The translations under genes and the position numbers were made by a program. From a virus, in the IMG/VR virus record IMGVR_UViG_3300021405_000053, positions 1 to 20,537 of that record: a stretch of 20,537 nt of DNA. One strand, given 5' to 3'. Shown here one piece after another: positions 81 through 20,176 of this stretch (its first letter is position 1; the number at the start of each line of letters is the position of its first letter). The notes beneath the pieces are model-generated. The model saw only the letters and a program-made list of their open reading frames with translations. It did not search any database and was not told where the DNA came from.

Positions 81-276
81 CAGTTGCCTTTTCGGCGAAC
101 ATATCGCCGGTTGGATGCTCAAGTTCGAAGAACCAGTCCTCGATGGCGTTCTGGATGGCTTGCGAGAGCGACCGGATTTGCGCCTCAGTCTCGCGTGGCT
201 GGATTTCAGCCAGGAAATAAAGGGCGAGACGCTCGCAGGCCGGATCATAGCTGAATTGGGGCTTGCGCAAGGTCAT
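70..276 (-). CDS. Small hypothetical phage protein (68 aa)
   Basis: The start is ATG at 276 ([11 protein letters not shown]), chosen because GGAGG lies 6 bases upstream; an in-frame upstream extension to 297 lacks such a site. The protein is acidic overall, with a likely helical middle (SLSQAIQNAIEDWFFELEHP) and no Cys motif, signal peptide or membrane segment. Its start overlaps the last codons of the methyltransferase gene by 4 bases, so translation is probably coupled. I do not recognise the family. By position it belongs to the early nuclease/methylase operon. Confidence 0.55.
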   Translation of the reverse strand: MTLRKPQFSYDPACERLALYFLAEIQPRETEAQIRSLSQAIQNAIEDWFFELEHPTGDMFAEKATDAH

Positions 277-1196
277 GAAATAGCCTCCATGGCGCACTCG
301 ACGAAGGCCCGCGCCACCGGCAGGACTACGGCGTTGCCGTATCCTCGGAGCATTCCGGTTCTGGACATGCCTTCGTAGGGGCCGCCCGATCCCAGATGGA
401 AGGCAGACCCATCAACCAGCGGGAATGACTGGGGCTCAATTGGCCGCCATTTGCCGTCGCGGCAGAAGATCCAGTCAGCATCCGACCAGAAGCAGTCAGG
501 CGGGCGGGGCCGACCAATTGGACGGTCGTCGAGAGCATCTTCTGCTTCGTGCCCAAGTTCGGATTGGCGGCCTTCTGTTTCGCGTTCAGGCGTTCCCACT
601 CTTCGGGAGCCATGTCGTTCTCGGAGGCGCTCGGCGTCGGCCAGCCCGCCAGTCGCGCCATCCCGCTCAAGGGCGTCGGCCATCCAGAAAAGCCGGTACC
701 TGAGGTGCGGAGCGCCGAGGCCGCAAGCTGGCAGGATGGCGGTCCCGACGGCATATCCGCTGGCCTCCAGGTCGTGGCGAACAGCCGCCATCCACTCCCG
801 CCCATCCTGGCTCGCAACCTGCTCTCCAAGGATCGTTGCAGGGCGGCGCTCGGCGATGAGGCGGTGAAAAGCGGGCCAGAGGTGTCGTTGGTCGACATGG
901 CCTTTTCGCTGTCCAGCCGCCGAAAGCGGCTGACATGGACATGACCCGGTGAAGAGCGGCCTTGCGAGCCGCCGGTTGCTCGCCTGCTCGGCTTCAGCGA
1001 CGGCTCTGGCCCAGACGCCGATCCCAGCGAAGAAGTGGAGCTCGTCGCATCCGGCGAGGTCATCTCCCCGAACATCGACAATTGACCGTTCATCGACCAC
1101 TCCATCGGGGATTTCGCCCAGCGCGATCAGGTTGCGCAGCCACGCCGCCGCGTGAGGCTCGATCTCATTGTAGAGGGCGGCGGCCTCAATGGGCAT
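273..1196 (-). CDS. C5-cytosine DNA methyltransferase (Dcm-like)
   Basis: This 307-aa protein is predicted to transfer a methyl group from S-adenosylmethionine to C5 of cytosine. The motifs are in family order: FFAGIG near residues 55-60 (AdoMet binding), GSCPCQP at 84-90 with catalytic Cys88, GEQVAS at 124-129 in place of the usual [11 protein letters not shown] at 164-171 (RxR) and RGYGNAVV at 284-291. The stretch between about 172 and 240 is the likely target-recognition region. ATG 1196 has GGAGG 6 bases upstream; ATG 1247, overlapping the previous stop, is a possible longer start. No partner restriction enzyme is recognisable, so protection of phage DNA from host restriction, or regulation, is more likely than a full R-M system. 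A second ORF runs through most of this gene in another frame. Confidence 0.9.
326..1093 (-). CDS. Candidate overlapping gene inside the methyltransferase gene (255 aa, other frame, same strand)
   Basis: The frame is open for 255 codons within the methyltransferase gene. ATG 1093 ([10 protein letters not shown]) has GGAG 6 bases upstream. The product is rich in Ser, Pro, Thr and Ala. It carries a repeated GWPTP motif (about 138-141 and 150-154), a segment [13 protein letters not shown] (85-97) and a C-terminal [18 protein letters not shown] (218-235). From memory, these features match a phage/prophage family of hypothetical proteins with N-terminal MN.QLSLFGE, GWPTP repeats and HSRWLMG. If so, both frames are conserved at one locus. 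The alternative is a long shadow frame repeatedly called as a gene in GC-rich genomes. No function can be assigned. Confidence 0.45.
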
Positions 1197-1575: not shown

Positions 1576-1923
1576 TCATTCGAACTCCTGCTTGATGCCG
1601 TAGCGCCGGGCCAGCTCGGTCGGTCCTCGGCCGACGACGCGGTGTTCCTTCTTGAGGCGCTTCATCTTGGCGATCTCGAACACGTCGCGCCGCGTTTTGA
1701 CGTCGTGGCACTTGAGGCAGAGCAACTTGCCATCGTCTGCCGAGAGCGCGGGCCGGTTGTCGTTGACCGGCTGCACGCCTTCGGGGACGCAATGGTCGAT
1801 CTCGTAGTCGGCCCGCGTCGGGCATTCGGCGCCGCACTCCTCGCACCACCTGCGGCCGGTCATGTCAGTCGCGCGGCGCTCGATGGCGCGCTGGCTGGCG
1901 GCCGAGAACGAGATGCGGATCAT
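1576..1923 (-). CDS. HNH endonuclease-like protein (115 aa)
   Basis: The pattern is that of a small HNH nuclease with a zinc-binding frame: C27-x2-C30, then DYEIDHCVPEG (39-49) with the Asp-His of the first HNH strand, then LLCLKCHDVKT (67-77) giving the second Cys pair and the terminal His. A basic C-terminal tail (KMKRLKKEHR) could bind DNA. ATG 1923 overlaps the upstream stop as ATGA and has a G-rich ribosome site. Family members nick or cut DNA, some acting in packaging and others as homing enzymes. Here it lies within the early recombination block, far from the terminase, so a recombination or host-DNA role is as likely as packaging. Confidence 0.8.
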   Translation of the reverse strand: MIRISFSAASQRAIERRATDMTGRRWCEECGAECPTRADYEIDHCVPEGVQPVNDNRPALSADDGKLLCLKCHDVKTRRDVFEIAKMKRLKKEHRVVGRGPTELARRYGIKQEFE

Positions 1924-2129
1924 GTTCCCCCCACATCTGGGCAGAGCCATCGCGCCAAGTCGTGGAGGCAATATCCACACACCAGCAGACCGTTTTCTCG
2001 CCGCTCTTCGTTGCCCCTCCCGGCGGGTTGGGGCTGGACCGCGCAAATCATCAGGACCCCCCAGCCGGTTTGATCATCGATCTTGCGGTCGCATCGTTCG
2101 CAGAGCGCCGGGAATGGCGGGTAGCTCAT
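1920..2129 (-). CDS. Small four-cysteine (zinc-ribbon-like) protein (69 aa)
   Basis: Cysteine pairs C10-x2-C13 and C51-x2-C54 suggest one zinc-binding ribbon; extra Cys residues occur at 29 and 63. The intervening segment is Gly/Arg-rich (QPQPAGRGNEERRENG). The gene is linked to its neighbours by ATGA overlaps at both ends. It could bind nucleic acid or be a structural zinc protein. I do not recognise a named family. Confidence 0.6.
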   Translation of the reverse strand: MSYPPFPALCERCDRKIDDQTGWGVLMICAVQPQPAGRGNEERRENGLLVCGYCLHDLARWLCPDVGGT

Positions 2130-2347
2130 GCCGCCCCCCGCCGCGCCCGTCGCGTCTCGGCGCCCTTGGCGTATGAACGCTCCTGCTGGCGCTCATAGCC
2201 CTCACAAACCAGAAGGATTGCCTCGCGCACACGATCCGGCAAATCGGCCAACCAGATCAGGATCGGCGCTCCAAGCTCATCCTTCGGCGTTGCCGGGCCA
2301 AGCTCATCAACCTTTCGGCGCAGGCTCTCTGCCCAAGTCTCTTTCAT
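2126..2347 (-). CDS. Small hypothetical protein (73 aa)
   Basis: ATG 2347 overlaps the upstream stop as ATGA, and the stop overlaps the next start the same way. The protein is predicted mostly helical (MKETWAESLRRKVDELG... WLADLPDRVREAILLVCEGYE) with a basic Arg/Ala tail. There is no Cys cluster or membrane span. I do not recognise it; only the operon packing and codon pattern support it as a gene. Confidence 0.55.
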   Translation of the reverse strand: MKETWAESLRRKVDELGPATPKDELGAPILIWLADLPDRVREAILLVCEGYERQQERSYAKGAETRRARRGAA

Positions 2348-2844
2348 GCCGCCCCCCGGAGCCGCTCAGGCTCGACGCCGATCAGGTTCGCGATCCAGCC
2401 CAGGATGTCGGCCTTGGAGGCCTCGAACTCGGCCTTCAGCATCCGGTCGAGGCCATGCATGCGTTGGCTGCGCGCCTTCTGCACGATGACGGTCGAGCCC
2501 CGCACGACGACGCGGGCGAACTCATCCTCGCCCCTGGCGTAGGCGGCCACGCGCGCCGCCGCCGCCCGGCTCCCGCAATCGATGATCGCCTCTCGATGCC
2601 AGCCGGTGGCGATCAGCGCCGCCTTGCGCAGATGCTCGGACGTCGGGAATGTCTCGGCCATGGCTTCGGGCAGGTTGGCCCAGGCCTCGGCGATCCAGGC
2701 GAACTGCTGCTGGTGGGAGGCCCAGCTCCGCTCGGACACCTCGTCGAGCCAGTACCGGCGGCCGATCACGAACGCCTTGTCGGCGGCCTTCGGCCTCGCC
2801 GGGATCATCGCTTCGCCGTTCCAGACAAAGGCCATCATGCTCAT
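2344..2844 (-). CDS. Conserved phage protein of unknown function (166 aa)
   Basis: ATG 2844 (MSMMAFVWNGEAM) is chosen over the longer frame because it overlaps the upstream HNH gene stop as ATGA. The sequence resembles, from memory, a family in alphaproteobacterial prophages with the pattern FVWxGExMxPxxxxxADxxFVxGxxYxL, then an ASH motif (42-44), an F/WxAL/IxEAWxNLPE segment (49-60) and FPTxEHLRKxAL (66-77). The second half has VARVVV-like beta strands followed by an F.ASKADIL helix (140-148). The family lies near recombination genes in such phages, which suggests DNA metabolism. No catalytic residues are obvious. Confidence 0.7.
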   Translation of the reverse strand: MSMMAFVWNGEAMIPARPKAADKAFVIGRRYWLDEVSERSWASHQQQFAWIAEAWANLPEAMAETFPTSEHLRKAALIATGWHREAIIDCGSRAAAARVAAYARGEDEFARVVVRGSTVIVQKARSQRMHGLDRMLKAEFEASKADILGWIANLIGVEPERLRGAA

Positions 2845-3173
2845 AGGCCCATCTTGTGAAGGTCGAGGTGGTGCTTGCGGCAAAGCCACACGACGTTGAG
2901 CGGCTCGCCGTAGTCGGGGTGATGCATCTCGGCGTCGTCGGCGTCGCACACGAAGCACGGCTCCCGCGTCAATTTGCCGCGCTTCAGATATTCTTTGGCG
3001 TAGGATCGGGCGTTGTCCTTGCGCCGCTGCTCAGCGTTCATCGGATGTGTCTTGCGCCATTCGCGCATGTAGGCGCGATGGTACGCGCGCTTCGCCTCGC
3101 GCCCTATTTCATATGAAATAGGGTCAGCCTGGATCGGCTCGCCTCTCTCATTTGTGAACTGGAAACCTTGCAT
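2841..3173 (-). CDS. HNH-type zinc-finger endonuclease-like protein (110 aa)
   Basis: The C-terminal half has the HNH/treble-clef pattern: C73-x2-C76, then EMHHPDYGEPLNVVWLCRKHHLDLH (residues 82-106), with His84/His85, C98 and the closing His residues. The N-terminal half is basic and carries YHRAYMREWR (31-40), a Y-x-R-x-Y-M-R element that recurs in two other proteins of this window. Start ATG 3173 has only a weak ribosome site; it begins 5 bases after a tiny ORF that follows the exonuclease gene. Family members bind or cut DNA. Its place next to YqaJ and ERF favours a role in phage DNA recombination. Confidence 0.75.
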   Translation of the reverse strand: MQGFQFTNERGEPIQADPISYEIGREAKRAYHRAYMREWRKTHPMNAEQRRKDNARSYAKEYLKRGKLTREPCFVCDADDAEMHHPDYGEPLNVVWLCRKHHLDLHKMGL

Positions 3174-3178
3174 GGGTT

Positions 3179-3226
3179 TCAGCCGGGCTTAATGGTTTCT
3201 GGCTGGGCTTTTGGGGCGATCATCAT
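3179..3226 (-). CDS. Candidate minigene between the exonuclease and HNH genes (15 aa)
   Basis: ATG 3226 overlaps the exonuclease stop as ATGA and encodes MMIAPKAQPETIKPG before TGA, leaving 5 bases to the HNH start. It fills the gap between the two genes exactly, so it could hand ribosomes from one gene to the next or be a functional micro-peptide. It is too short to judge by composition and may be chance. Confidence 0.3.
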   Translation of the reverse strand: MMIAPKAQPETIKPG

Positions 3227-3864
3227 GCCGCCATCGCGTAGCGGCGTGAGAGCTTGTCGACCTTCGCCTCCAGCTCCCTGATGAAGATCGTGATCTCGCG
3301 CTCGAGCGCGGCGATGAGCGCAGCGTCGCGATGGACGCGCTTGATCCAGAGCTGCATCGCGGGCGGGAAGTCGGGGTTGTACGAGACGTAGTCACACCAG
3401 GGGCTCACGGCGCAGGCCATCTGCCACTGCATCTGCACGGTGTAGTCGTTGCTGATCGTCTCGGTGAGCAGCGTGTCGAGATGCGCTGCGGGCTCTGGGC
3501 ATTTGATCTCGATCAAGCCCCCTATCGCCGTGCCGCCGGGCTGCAAGACATAGCCATCGGGCGAGGCGTGCGAGCCCTTGACGGTGAGGTGCGAGACGAG
3601 GCCCACCTGCTCGACCTCGACGCCGCGCACCATCTGGTAGAGCAGGCGCGCTTCAGGCTCGCGCTCGACCCCCCTCAGCATGGCGGCGCTCTTGAACTTC
3701 TCGAACGGCGTGTTGGTCAGGCGCTCAAGCACCTTTTCCGCCATCAGGCTGTCGCGATCCGCGCTGTAGCCGCCCGACTTGATGCGGCGCACGACGCGCG
3801 GCGCATCGGACGCGCCTATCGAACCGCAGCGCGCTTGGCGCCACTCCTCACTGCCCTGGAGCAT
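3223..3864 (-). CDS. YqaJ/lambda-exonuclease-family recombinase (213 aa)
   Basis: This is predicted to be a 5'-3' double-strand DNA exonuclease that generates 3' single strands for the adjacent annealing protein. Visible elements are GSEEWRQARCGSIGASDA (4-21), GVEREPEAR (65-73), SPDGYV (101-106) with Asp103, and GLIEIKCP (116-123) with the E119-x-K121 of the PD-(D/E)XK core. The Y-TVQMQWQMA segment (141-150) is the conserved glutamine helix. Length fits the family. ATG 3864 lies 17 bases inside the end of the annealing gene. With ERF it forms a two-component recombination system of the lambda Red type. Confidence 0.9.
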   Translation of the reverse strand: MLQGSEEWRQARCGSIGASDAPRVVRRIKSGGYSADRDSLMAEKVLERLTNTPFEKFKSAAMLRGVEREPEARLLYQMVRGVEVEQVGLVSHLTVKGSHASPDGYVLQPGGTAIGGLIEIKCPEPAAHLDTLLTETISNDYTVQMQWQMACAVSPWCDYVSYNPDFPPAMQLWIKRVHRDAALIAALEREITIFIRELEAKVDKLSRRYAMAA

Positions 3865-4651
3865 TCTTGCGCCCCTTCTCTGCCTTGGCGAGGTCGAGGA
3901 CCTGCTTCGCCCGCGTGTACTGATCGACGTTCATGTCGATCACGCTCTCGACGCCGACGAGCTTGAGCAGCGTCGCTTGGCTGCGGCCGGTGTCGTCGAT
4001 GAGCTTCTGCAGCTCGTTGGCCTGCTCGATGCTGATCTTGGGCGAGGCCTCGCTCTGGCCATCGTTGTCGCGCCCGGCGGCGAGGCCCAGCGCCTGCTTG
4101 AGCGTGGCGCGCTGCATGAAGGTGATGGTCGAGGTGACGGCTTGGTTCGCGCTCTTCTGGCCGCTCGTATCCTCGACGCCGTCCTGGGGGAACTCTTCGC
4201 TGTAGCCGTCGGCGTGGCTGAAGATGCAGGTGACGGTGATCTTGGCGCCGTTCTGCGTCACGCGATGGGAGTAGCTCAAGCCGTGCTTGGCGAGGATCGG
4301 GTCGACGACCTGAGTGATGTCGAACAGGTCCTCGTACTTGTAACTGGTGCGCCCGCGCCCATCCTTGTGAGGATAGTCGACGAGGCGTGTCTTGATGATC
4401 GGCGGCAGCTCGCCCTTCGCCTTGGCCTTCGCATCGAGGTAGGCGCGCTTGGCGGCGCGGTCCTCTTCGTCGTGCCGCGCCTTAAGCAGCCGGTCGAACA
4501 CTTCAAGGTTCAGCGCGGGATTGGTGGCGAGCCGCTCGATCACTGCGAGCAGGCCGCCGCCCTCGGTGGCCGAAGAGGGGGGTCCTGGGTCCGAGGGCGG
4601 CGCAGCGACCGACTGGTAAGGGACCCCGGCCGCTGGCTGATTATCGCTCAT
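3848..4651 (-). CDS. erf: ERF-family single-strand annealing protein (267 aa)
   Basis: This is a phage recombinase that anneals complementary single strands, working with the exonuclease encoded just downstream. The core (about 35-200) shows a Lys/Asp-rich helix LLKARHDEEDRAAKRAYLDA (55-74), the PPIIKTRLVDYP strand (83-94), YKYEDLFDITQVVDPIL.KHGLSYSHR (105-130) and the family signature AVTSTITFMQRATLKQALGL followed by GRDNDG (171-198). The N-terminus is Pro/Ser-rich and probably disordered; the C-terminus adds a helical extension (205-260). ATG 4651 is preferred over ATG 4663 because AGGG sits at the right distance. It is the first gene transcribed leftward from the operator array at 4744-4798. 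Confidence 0.88.
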   Translation of the reverse strand: MSDNQPAAGVPYQSVAAPPSDPGPPSSATEGGGLLAVIERLATNPALNLEVFDRLLKARHDEEDRAAKRAYLDAKAKAKGELPPIIKTRLVDYPHKDGRGRTSYKYEDLFDITQVVDPILAKHGLSYSHRVTQNGAKITVTCIFSHADGYSEEFPQDGVEDTSGQKSANQAVTSTITFMQRATLKQALGLAAGRDNDGQSEASPKISIEQANELQKLIDDTGRSQATLLKLVGVESVIDMNVDQYTRAKQVLDLAKAEKGRKNAPGQ

Positions 4652-4697
4652 CTGGTCCCTCATGCAAAGACCGAAGGTTGTCCCCCCGCCATCTGGC

Positions 4698-5229: not shown

Positions 5230-5586
5230 ATGGCGCGGAAACGTAAGAGATTTACGCCGTCTGAAGATGACATCACCGCCGCCGTCGTCGATCACTGGAA
5301 GCTCCTCGGCGTCCCCGGCTCCCTGGTCGCCTCGATCCCCAACAAGCGCGCCTTCGGCCAGCCGGGCCTGAGGCGCGGCCTCGCCGATCTCCTCGTCCTC
5401 GCGCCCGACCTCCCCGTCGGCTTCATCGAACTCAAGCGCGACGAGGACAGCGACGTCAGCGACGCGCAGCGCGACTTCAGTCGCTTATGCGCCGGGCTCG
5501 CGATCCCCTACGCGATCTGCGTCGGTCGCGACGAGCCGATCCGCCTGCTTGAGGCCTGGGGCGTCGTGCGGAGGGCCGCCGCATGA
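5230..5586 (+). CDS. VRR-NUC domain nuclease (118 aa)
   Basis: A stand-alone VRR-NUC (PD-(D/E)XK superfamily) phage protein. It shows E12 in the first helix, IPNKRAFGQPGLRRG-LADLL with Asp53 (36-55), FIELKRDEDSD with E67-x-K69, and the VSDAQRDF helix with Gln80. Family length is about 90-150 aa. Such proteins are thought to cleave branched or structured DNA during recombination or replication. ATG 5230 has GAGGGG upstream, and the stop overlaps the next gene as ATGA, so the two nuclease-like proteins are probably co-translated. Confidence 0.85.
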   Translation: MARKRKRFTPSEDDITAAVVDHWKLLGVPGSLVASIPNKRAFGQPGLRRGLADLLVLAPDLPVGFIELKRDEDSDVSDAQRDFSRLCAGLAIPYAICVGRDEPIRLLEAWGVVRRAAA

Positions 5587-18832: not shown

Positions 18833-20176
18833 TTGTCCTTCGCCTCCGACGCCCAAACAAAACCCAGCGACGCCGACGCGCCGCTGGTCATCCCCTACCG
18901 GCCTCGAAAACACTTCCTCAGCCTGCACGCCAGCGACAAGAGGTGGATCTTCGCCTGCTGCCATCGACGCGCAGGCAAGACGGTGGCCATCGCCAACCAC
19001 CTGATCCGCGCCGCCTACCTCAACCCCAGGCAATGGCCGCCGCCGCGCTACGGCTACGTCGGCCCCTCGTTCGAGCAGGCCAAGGATCTGGTCTGGTCGT
19101 ATCTCAAGCAGTACACCTCGACCATCGACGGCGTCCGCTTCCTCGAAGGCGAACTCGCCATCGTCCTCCCCCACAACGGCGCGATCATCAAGCTCTACGG
19201 CGGCATGTCGGCCTACGAACGCATGCGCGGCATGTACTTCGACGGCATCGCCCTCGACGAATATCCGCTGTTGCAAAAGACCGTGTTCTCGACCGTGGTG
19301 CGCCCGTGCTTGGCCGACTATCGGGGCTGGGCCATCGTCTCAGGAACCTCGAACGGCGACGACCACTTCAACACCCTGCGCCTGCGCGCGATGGAGGACG
19401 AACGCTGGGACGTGTTCCTGATCCCGCTGTCGGAAACCGGCGAGGAGGCCCTGAGCTACGCCGAGGCGCGCGAACTCACCCAGGACATGAGCCCCGACGA
19501 ATACGCGCGCGAGATGGAATGCTCGTTCGACGCGCCCGTCGAAGGCGCCTATTTCGCCGAAAGCCTCAACACGCTCGCGCTGCAGGGCCGCGTCTGCAAG
19601 GTCCCGGTCGATCTCGCCGCCCCGGTCATCACCTCATGGGACCTCGGCGTGCACGACTATTGCTCGATCTGGTCGTGGCAGAACGTCGGCCGCGAGGTCC
19701 ACTTCGTCGACTACGTCATGGGCGTTGGCAAGGGCCTCGACCACTGGGCCCAGCACCTCAGGACCAAGAAGGCCGAGGGCGGCTTCCACTACCAGTGCCA
19801 CCTCCTGCCGCACGACATCGAGGCGCGCGAGATCTCCACCGCCAAGAGCCGCCGCAAGACGCTGGAGGAGCTGATCCCGAAGAACGAGCCGATCATCACC
19901 GTGCCCCGCATTCGCTCCAAGGAGGACGGCATCCACGCCTCGCGCGCCATGCTCGGCTCGGCCTATTTCGACGAGCTCAATTGCAAAGTAGGCTTGGCGA
20001 TGTTGAGAGGCTACCACAAGAGCGCGATGGGCCTGCCGGTGCACGGGCCGGGCCCGCACTCACACGGGGCCGACGCCTTCCAGACCGCCGCCGTCGGTTT
20101 TCATTTGGTCACCGGCTTGAGCGCCTCGATGCTCAGGCGCGGCGCCATGCGGCGGAAGATCCGGGGGCTCGTGTGA
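18833..20176 (+). CDS. terL: Large terminase subunit (447 aa)
   Basis: This is the DNA-packaging motor ATPase and nuclease. Motifs: Walker A CHRRAGKT (43-50), Walker B GIALDE with D142/E143, coupling motif SGTSNGDD (170-177), and RuvC-like nuclease acids SWDLG (D270), FVDYV (D293), PHDIE (D328) and HGADAF (D414). Length and order fit the family. The start is TTG 18833, one base after the previous stop, with GAAGG 6 bases upstream; no ATG is closer to the conserved N-terminus. Next to it lie a candidate small subunit and a small basic gene, consistent with a packaging operon. Confidence 0.93.
   Translation: MSFASDAQTKPSDADAPLVIPYRPRKHFLSLHASDKRWIFACCHRRAGKTVAIANHLIRAAYLNPRQWPPPRYGYVGPSFEQAKDLVWSYLKQYTSTIDGVRFLEGELAIVLPHNGAIIKLYGGMSAYERMRGMYFDGIALDEYPLLQKTVFSTVVRPCLADYRGWAIVSGTSNGDDHFNTLRLRAMEDERWDVFLIPLSETGEEALSYAEARELTQDMSPDEYAREMECSFDAPVEGAYFAESLNTLALQGRVCKVPVDLAAPVITSWDLGVHDYCSIWSWQNVGREVHFVDYVMGVGKGLDHWAQHLRTKKAEGGFHYQCHLLPHDIEAREISTAKSRRKTLEELIPKNEPIITVPRIRSKEDGIHASRAMLGSAYFDELNCKVGLAMLRGYHKSAMGLPVHGPGPHSHGADAFQTAAVGFHLVTGLSASMLRRGAMRRKIRGLV

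Follow-up and report, generated by a model that had tools for sequence, protein, structure and literature searches.

A nested out-of-frame gene in phage C5-cytosine methyltransferase loci and its probable part in a split enzyme

The window studied here, an entire IMG/VR virus contig of 20,537 bases, contains on its minus strand a C5-cytosine methyltransferase frame of 307 codons (alpha) that wholly encloses a second ORF of 255 codons (beta), in the +1 frame relative to alpha, that is, one base further along. Comparison with related loci makes it almost certain that this ORF is real and the DNA dual-coding. The two readings are conserved together, the frame under constraint switches along the gene, the internal start signal is retained, and methylase motifs IX and X are distributed over the two frames. 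From these observations we consider it probable, at roughly 0.87, that the locus encodes a split C5-cytosine methyltransferase, with motifs I-VIII and X in alpha and the target-recognition region and motif IX in the nested beta. Hundreds of phages and prophages share this conserved arrangement, which their records usually annotate as one gene.

The locus and its two protein families

The features of the locus are collected in Table 1. An earlier sequence-only reading of this DNA had pointed to the ORF inside the methylase gene, with its own ATG and a GGAG six bases upstream, and described it correctly; the protein features it named, two GWPTP units and a characteristic end, are all there, and the methylase segment that it obtained by shifting the wording of the end by one frame does overlap the start of the end motif in the other frame. 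The family of phage proteins to which it referred exists as well, as PHROG 1008 (matched by beta at 1.8e-19) and PHROG 31772 (2e-23). That reading offered no function for the ORF; the evidence below indicates that beta is most likely the specificity subunit of the methylase. Elsewhere in the window there are genes for an HNH endonuclease, a YqaJ exonuclease, an ERF recombinase and a large terminase, with a weak VRR-NUC match.

Table 1. Features of the methyltransferase locus, and phage-context genes, in the window
Feature	Position	Strand	Evidence
Alpha, C5-cytosine methyltransferase frame, 307 aa (M at 1196, stop at 273)	273..1196	-	PF00145 5e-15, PHROG 363 5e-66
Alpha motif I, FFAGIG	1017-1034	-	
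Alpha motif IV, PCQ	927-947	-	
Alpha motif VI, GEQV	810-827	-	
Alpha motif VIII	684-713	-	
Alpha motif X, GYGNAVV	318-344	-	
Beta, nested +1-frame ORF, 255 codons/aa (ATG 1093, stop 326-328)	326..1093	-	
GGAG, likely Shine-Dalgarno of beta, ending 6 nt before ATG 1093	1100..1103	-	sequence
Possible second internal beta start (MSTNDTSG), local ribosome site weak in the window	896..898	-	
Putative target-recognition stretch, window codons 165-239, constrained in beta frame, neutral in alpha	477..701	-	omega, alpha pLDDT
Two GWPTP units in beta, within the target-recognition stretch	623-646, 662-685	-	
Alpha segment constrained mainly in alpha frame	441..482	-	omega alpha 0.17, beta 0.79; conserved in A4
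Beta motif, counterpart of the in-frame motif IX of Gordonia-type alpha	389..442	-	68 synonymous, 0 nonsynonymous
Alpha-only C-terminus beyond the beta stop	273..325	-	omega alpha 0.06, +1 frame 4.2; +1 stops reappear
Phage-context genes	1579-4663	-	
Phage-context genes	5230-5583	+	
Phage-context genes	18833-20173	+	

The PHROG 1008 profile also matches all of the relatives compared with it (106/106). This family, PHROG 31772 and the alpha family, PHROG 363, are all labelled DNA methyltransferase; they are listed as separate families, with no remark in the entries that 363 on the one hand and 1008/31772 on the other are two readings of one DNA. Beta has no family in Pfam or NCBIfam and no sequence relative in the PDB. 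The "Mte8-like protein" of Escherichia K1 phages is beta: in Escherichia phage K1H both frames are annotated, this protein lying inside the methylase gene, and no function is given for it, while most other records annotate one frame only. Both nested frames of Paenibacillus phage Pagassa (781-1851 and 983-1687 of locus L468) are annotated as DNA methyltransferase. No account of the overlap in phages was found in the literature, in a search that covered open-licence papers.

Conservation of the open +1 frame

The relatives comprise 289 distinct loci, nearly all retrieved through similarity to alpha alone; a few were added by beta similarity or from annotated phages, and the result does not depend on them. 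A +1 frame as open as this falls short of significance in the window gene by itself (65% GC; p=0.24, synonymous shuffling within the gene), and its significance comes from the relatives rather than from this single GC-rich gene. A +1 run of 200 or more open codons is present in 288 of the 289 methylase loci; among the other long ORFs that these loci contain, 3 of 207 have one. Over the core, defined as window codons 48-278, the 289 loci have 9 +1 stops in 73,384 codons, where 967±22 are expected from synonymous shuffling within each gene and 1310±27 from the codon usage of flanking and neighbouring genes; no core stop at all is found in 280 of them, compared with 11 or 5 expected under the two null models. 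The stop-poor zone of about 230 codons has sharp edges that match the start and end of beta, with +1 stops frequent before codon 48 and beyond 280, and stops are abundant in the +2 frame of the same genes. The second-frame stops in relatives that the sequence-only reading had named as evidence against dual coding are thus nearly lacking, and of its two alternatives, a large conserved overlap or a widespread annotation artefact, it is the overlap that is borne out. The depletion is also seen at 47-53% GC, in the Lc-Nu and Gordonia groups described below.

Two loci (L081 and L319) have a single core +1 stop each with the methylase frame intact, possibly through decay of beta or sequencing errors. 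In another (L170) the +1 frame of a different ORF, 331 codons long, stays open for 329 codons (p=0.01, shuffle), either by chance or as another overlap.

The start of beta

Most relatives have a strong Shine-Dalgarno sequence followed by the beta ATG, inside the alpha motif DERSI(E)DV. The pair is retained in 199 of the 289 loci, where redrawing the synonymous codons would leave it in 50, so that the conservation of start and ribosome site that had been suggested as a check is indeed found, and the Arg codon of DERSI is AGG in 42% of cases, compared with 8.7% elsewhere in alpha. The spacing from GGAG to ATG seen in the window recurs in L091 and L011; a further in-frame ATG of the window lies at 1105. 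The motif DERHLWP marks a second start, the standard one for the Gordonia group and the sole usable one in Escherichia phage N15, and the possible second start of the window is the counterpart of both; the N15 relatives are without the upstream beta start and use another. In N15 itself (L003, gene 58) the nested +1 gene is present and unannotated, with a GGGAGG ribosome site and its ATG at alpha codon 97.

Constraint along the two frames

Changes were counted for each frame in 70 matched close pairs, by simple per-frame counts and with pairs that are not fully independent. Split by methylase codon position, they come to 43/14/43% in the overlap; the two alpha-only ends give 15/13/72 and 22/11/67%, and the flank genes 19/11/70%. 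Third-position constraint, the synonymous-site signal that had been proposed as a check, is present where the two frames overlap.

Only the methylase is constrained in codons 0-33 (omega 0.06 for alpha, 5.5 for +1) and 48-89 (0.04 and 5.6), and both frames are constrained in codons 105-164 (0.27 and 0.58). Codons 165-239 are constrained in +1 only, at 0.16 (0.13-0.20), the alpha value being 1.15 (0.91-1.46), so that across the putative target-recognition region the methylase frame drifts neutrally. Alpha is the more constrained over codons 240-254 (0.17 and 0.79), +1 alone over codons 255-269 (alpha 1.37; +1 0, with 68 synonymous and 0 nonsynonymous changes), and the methylase alone in the motif X end, codons 285-306 (0.06 and 4.2). 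It follows from these values that the DNA alternates between two genes, with a middle stretch that is truly shared. Over the N-terminal ~50 residues of beta the frame is kept open and the amino acids are without constraint. The three closest relatives of the window give no clear codon-position pattern, and their recognition stretch is too diverged to align.

Related phage groups

Window-type loci lie on contigs assigned to Enterobacteriaceae, Burkholderiales, Rhodobacteraceae, Desulfovibrio, Leptospiraceae, Acidobacteria and others. Searches with each of the three beta types gave matches in 218, 171 and 301 phage records, the sets partly overlapping. The Lactobacillus Lc-Nu group (50% GC) has a beta with WPTP units and motif IX (LNPAWVEWLMGYPIGWT) and 10 +1 stops where 125±9 are expected. 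The Gordonia Baddon group (median GC 47%) has motif IX in-frame in alpha and nothing but an LPTP region in beta; there are 41 +1 stops against 433±15 expected, none of them in codons 100-159, and the +1 frame dominates codons 150-240. Actinophage methylases might have been expected to carry LPTP in frame, but the Gordonia-type LPTP lies in +1.

Yet another division is found in Mycobacterium phage Backyardigan (gp74/gp73; L467, 699-1794) and Arthrobacter phage Chocolat (gp80/gp81; L471, 240-2337), where alpha ends after motif VIII, the +1 gene has LPTP units, IX and X together in one frame, and the two genes overlap by 23 and 38 bases, respectively. The conserved +1 reading in both reaches upstream of the annotated start of the second gene. 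The closest alpha to that of the window (L011, IMGVR_UViG_3300050821_004996) is 91% alike over the first 175 residues; its beta is about 110 residues longer, with more WPTP-like units, and the length of the recognition region thus differs among near relatives.

Motifs and structure models

Alpha has motifs I, IV (PCQ), VI, VIII and X of the C5-cytosine methyltransferases (PF00145), and lacks the motif IX and recognition domain that PF00145 calls for in the same chain. The motif IX pattern is found in the +1 frame only in 257 of the 289 loci and in frame 0 in none (0/289), while motif X is present in alpha in 284. The window motif IX is collinear with that of M.HhaI, a match that is not significant alone. 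The three nested groups have beta profiles that align with one another (E 4e-26, 3e-20 and 3e-10), and alpha homology by itself would account for some of this similarity in the catalytic half. The same homology would not be expected to give the cross-frame match between the +1 motif IX and the in-frame motif IX (E 1e-6 and 2.5e-7).

The AF2 model of alpha matches M.HaeIII and M.HhaI; its catalytic core and motif X helix are confident, and residues 195-236, in the recognition stretch, have pLDDT <50 and are predicted to be disordered. Beta modelled alone gave pLDDT 64 and pTM 0.30, with meaningless fold matches and no structural match beyond them.

Comparison with known systems

Among characterised enzymes, M.EcoHK31I and M.AquI come closest. 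The small gene of the former reportedly lies inside the large gene in another frame (Lee, Kam and Shaw are said to have described this in 1995), and if so the nesting of the small gene in the window is like it. The window alpha, with I-VIII and X and without IX, and the small chain with motif IX also resemble the two polypeptides of M.EcoHK31I (YGGCCR), a large chain with I-VIII and X and a small one with IX (PMC3404938). In M.EcoHK31I, however, the large chain is credited with the predicted recognition domain, leaving motif IX alone to the small one (PMC3404938), whereas the stretch between VIII and IX in the window is constrained only in beta; because of that large-chain recognition domain no membership with M.EcoHK31I is claimed, the comparison being one of descriptions. 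M.EcoHK31I has moreover been described as one enzyme, and here there is a multi-phylum phage family with its putative recognition region in a nested gene.

M.AquI is likewise a two-polypeptide C5 methyltransferase, with the catalytic motifs in one chain and motif IX in the other (PMC3404938). Its beta also has motif X, whereas the window has motif X in alpha and its beta lies entirely inside the alpha gene; Backyardigan and Chocolat, with both IX and X in the small chain, are the most M.AquI-like. A hidden HNH endonuclease ORF out of frame in the methylase of mycobacteriophage ShiLan (PMC11855218) is similar in its placement, but it is a homing insertion in the third frame and not part of the enzyme.

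The proposed enzyme and other readings

In the enzyme that we propose, the methylase frame would yield alpha, comprising the catalytic half (motifs I-VIII) and the C-terminal motif X, and translation in +1 from the internal start codon, with its own ribosome site, would yield beta. Beta would supply the target-recognition region with its WPTP units, and motif IX, both absent as conserved sequence from alpha, and would be the chain that recognizes the target. Alpha and beta may then assemble into one active heterodimeric enzyme that methylates the phage DNA, probably protecting it against host restriction.

Programmed ribosomal frameshifting, in which ribosomes would pass into +1 around motif VIII and produce a single, longer enzyme, would suit loci of the Backyardigan/Chocolat type, where one +1 shift after VIII would give a full chain of I-VIII, recognition region, IX and X. 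We think it improbable: the +1 frame is kept open for ~120 codons upstream of motif VIII, up to a start with a conserved ribosome site, and the frameshift product of the window would lose motif X unless a second shift back took place. To much the same degree we doubt that beta, while real, has some other job, such as that of a regulator or anti-restriction factor, with alpha methylating alone. The lack of a structure match for beta alone would fit such a role, as would the conservation of some alpha residues in the overlap (codons 240-254), but the two chains complement each other in motif IX, each having it exactly where the other is without it, alpha drifts neutrally over the recognition stretch and is predicted to be disordered there, and in Backyardigan and Chocolat the LPTP region shares a chain with IX and X. 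Least credible by far is an artefact of GC-rich codon usage, with the second family a mistranslation of the methylase. The window gene, taken alone, would allow it, yet it is excluded by the within-gene shuffles, the flank codon usage, the +2 frame and the other genes; the signal holds at 47-53% GC, and +1 omega falls to 0.16 and 0.

Beyond the split enzyme itself, we lean, with modest confidence, towards a class of phage C5 methyltransferases, large and spread over several phyla, whose recognition part lies in a nested out-of-frame gene and in which the meaningful frame switches along the DNA. Alpha would be the old reading of the catalytic half and the overprinted one of the recognition half, with the opposite holding for beta, a pattern like that left by a pair of compensating frameshifts in a single-chain enzyme that was split by them.

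Significance

Beta lies wholly within another gene, is supported statistically over more than 300 loci of several bacterial phyla, and is largely unannotated. Its recognition would correct many phage methylase annotations, account for the absence of motif IX and of a recognition domain from their alpha chains, and reveal where specificity is encoded. If the proposed enzyme is correct, specificity could evolve as WPTP units are gained and lost, while the catalytic chain stays as it is. The locus is also a clean natural case in which overlapping frames trade constraint segment by segment, which makes the origin and upkeep of overlapping genes testable in laboratory phages such as N15.
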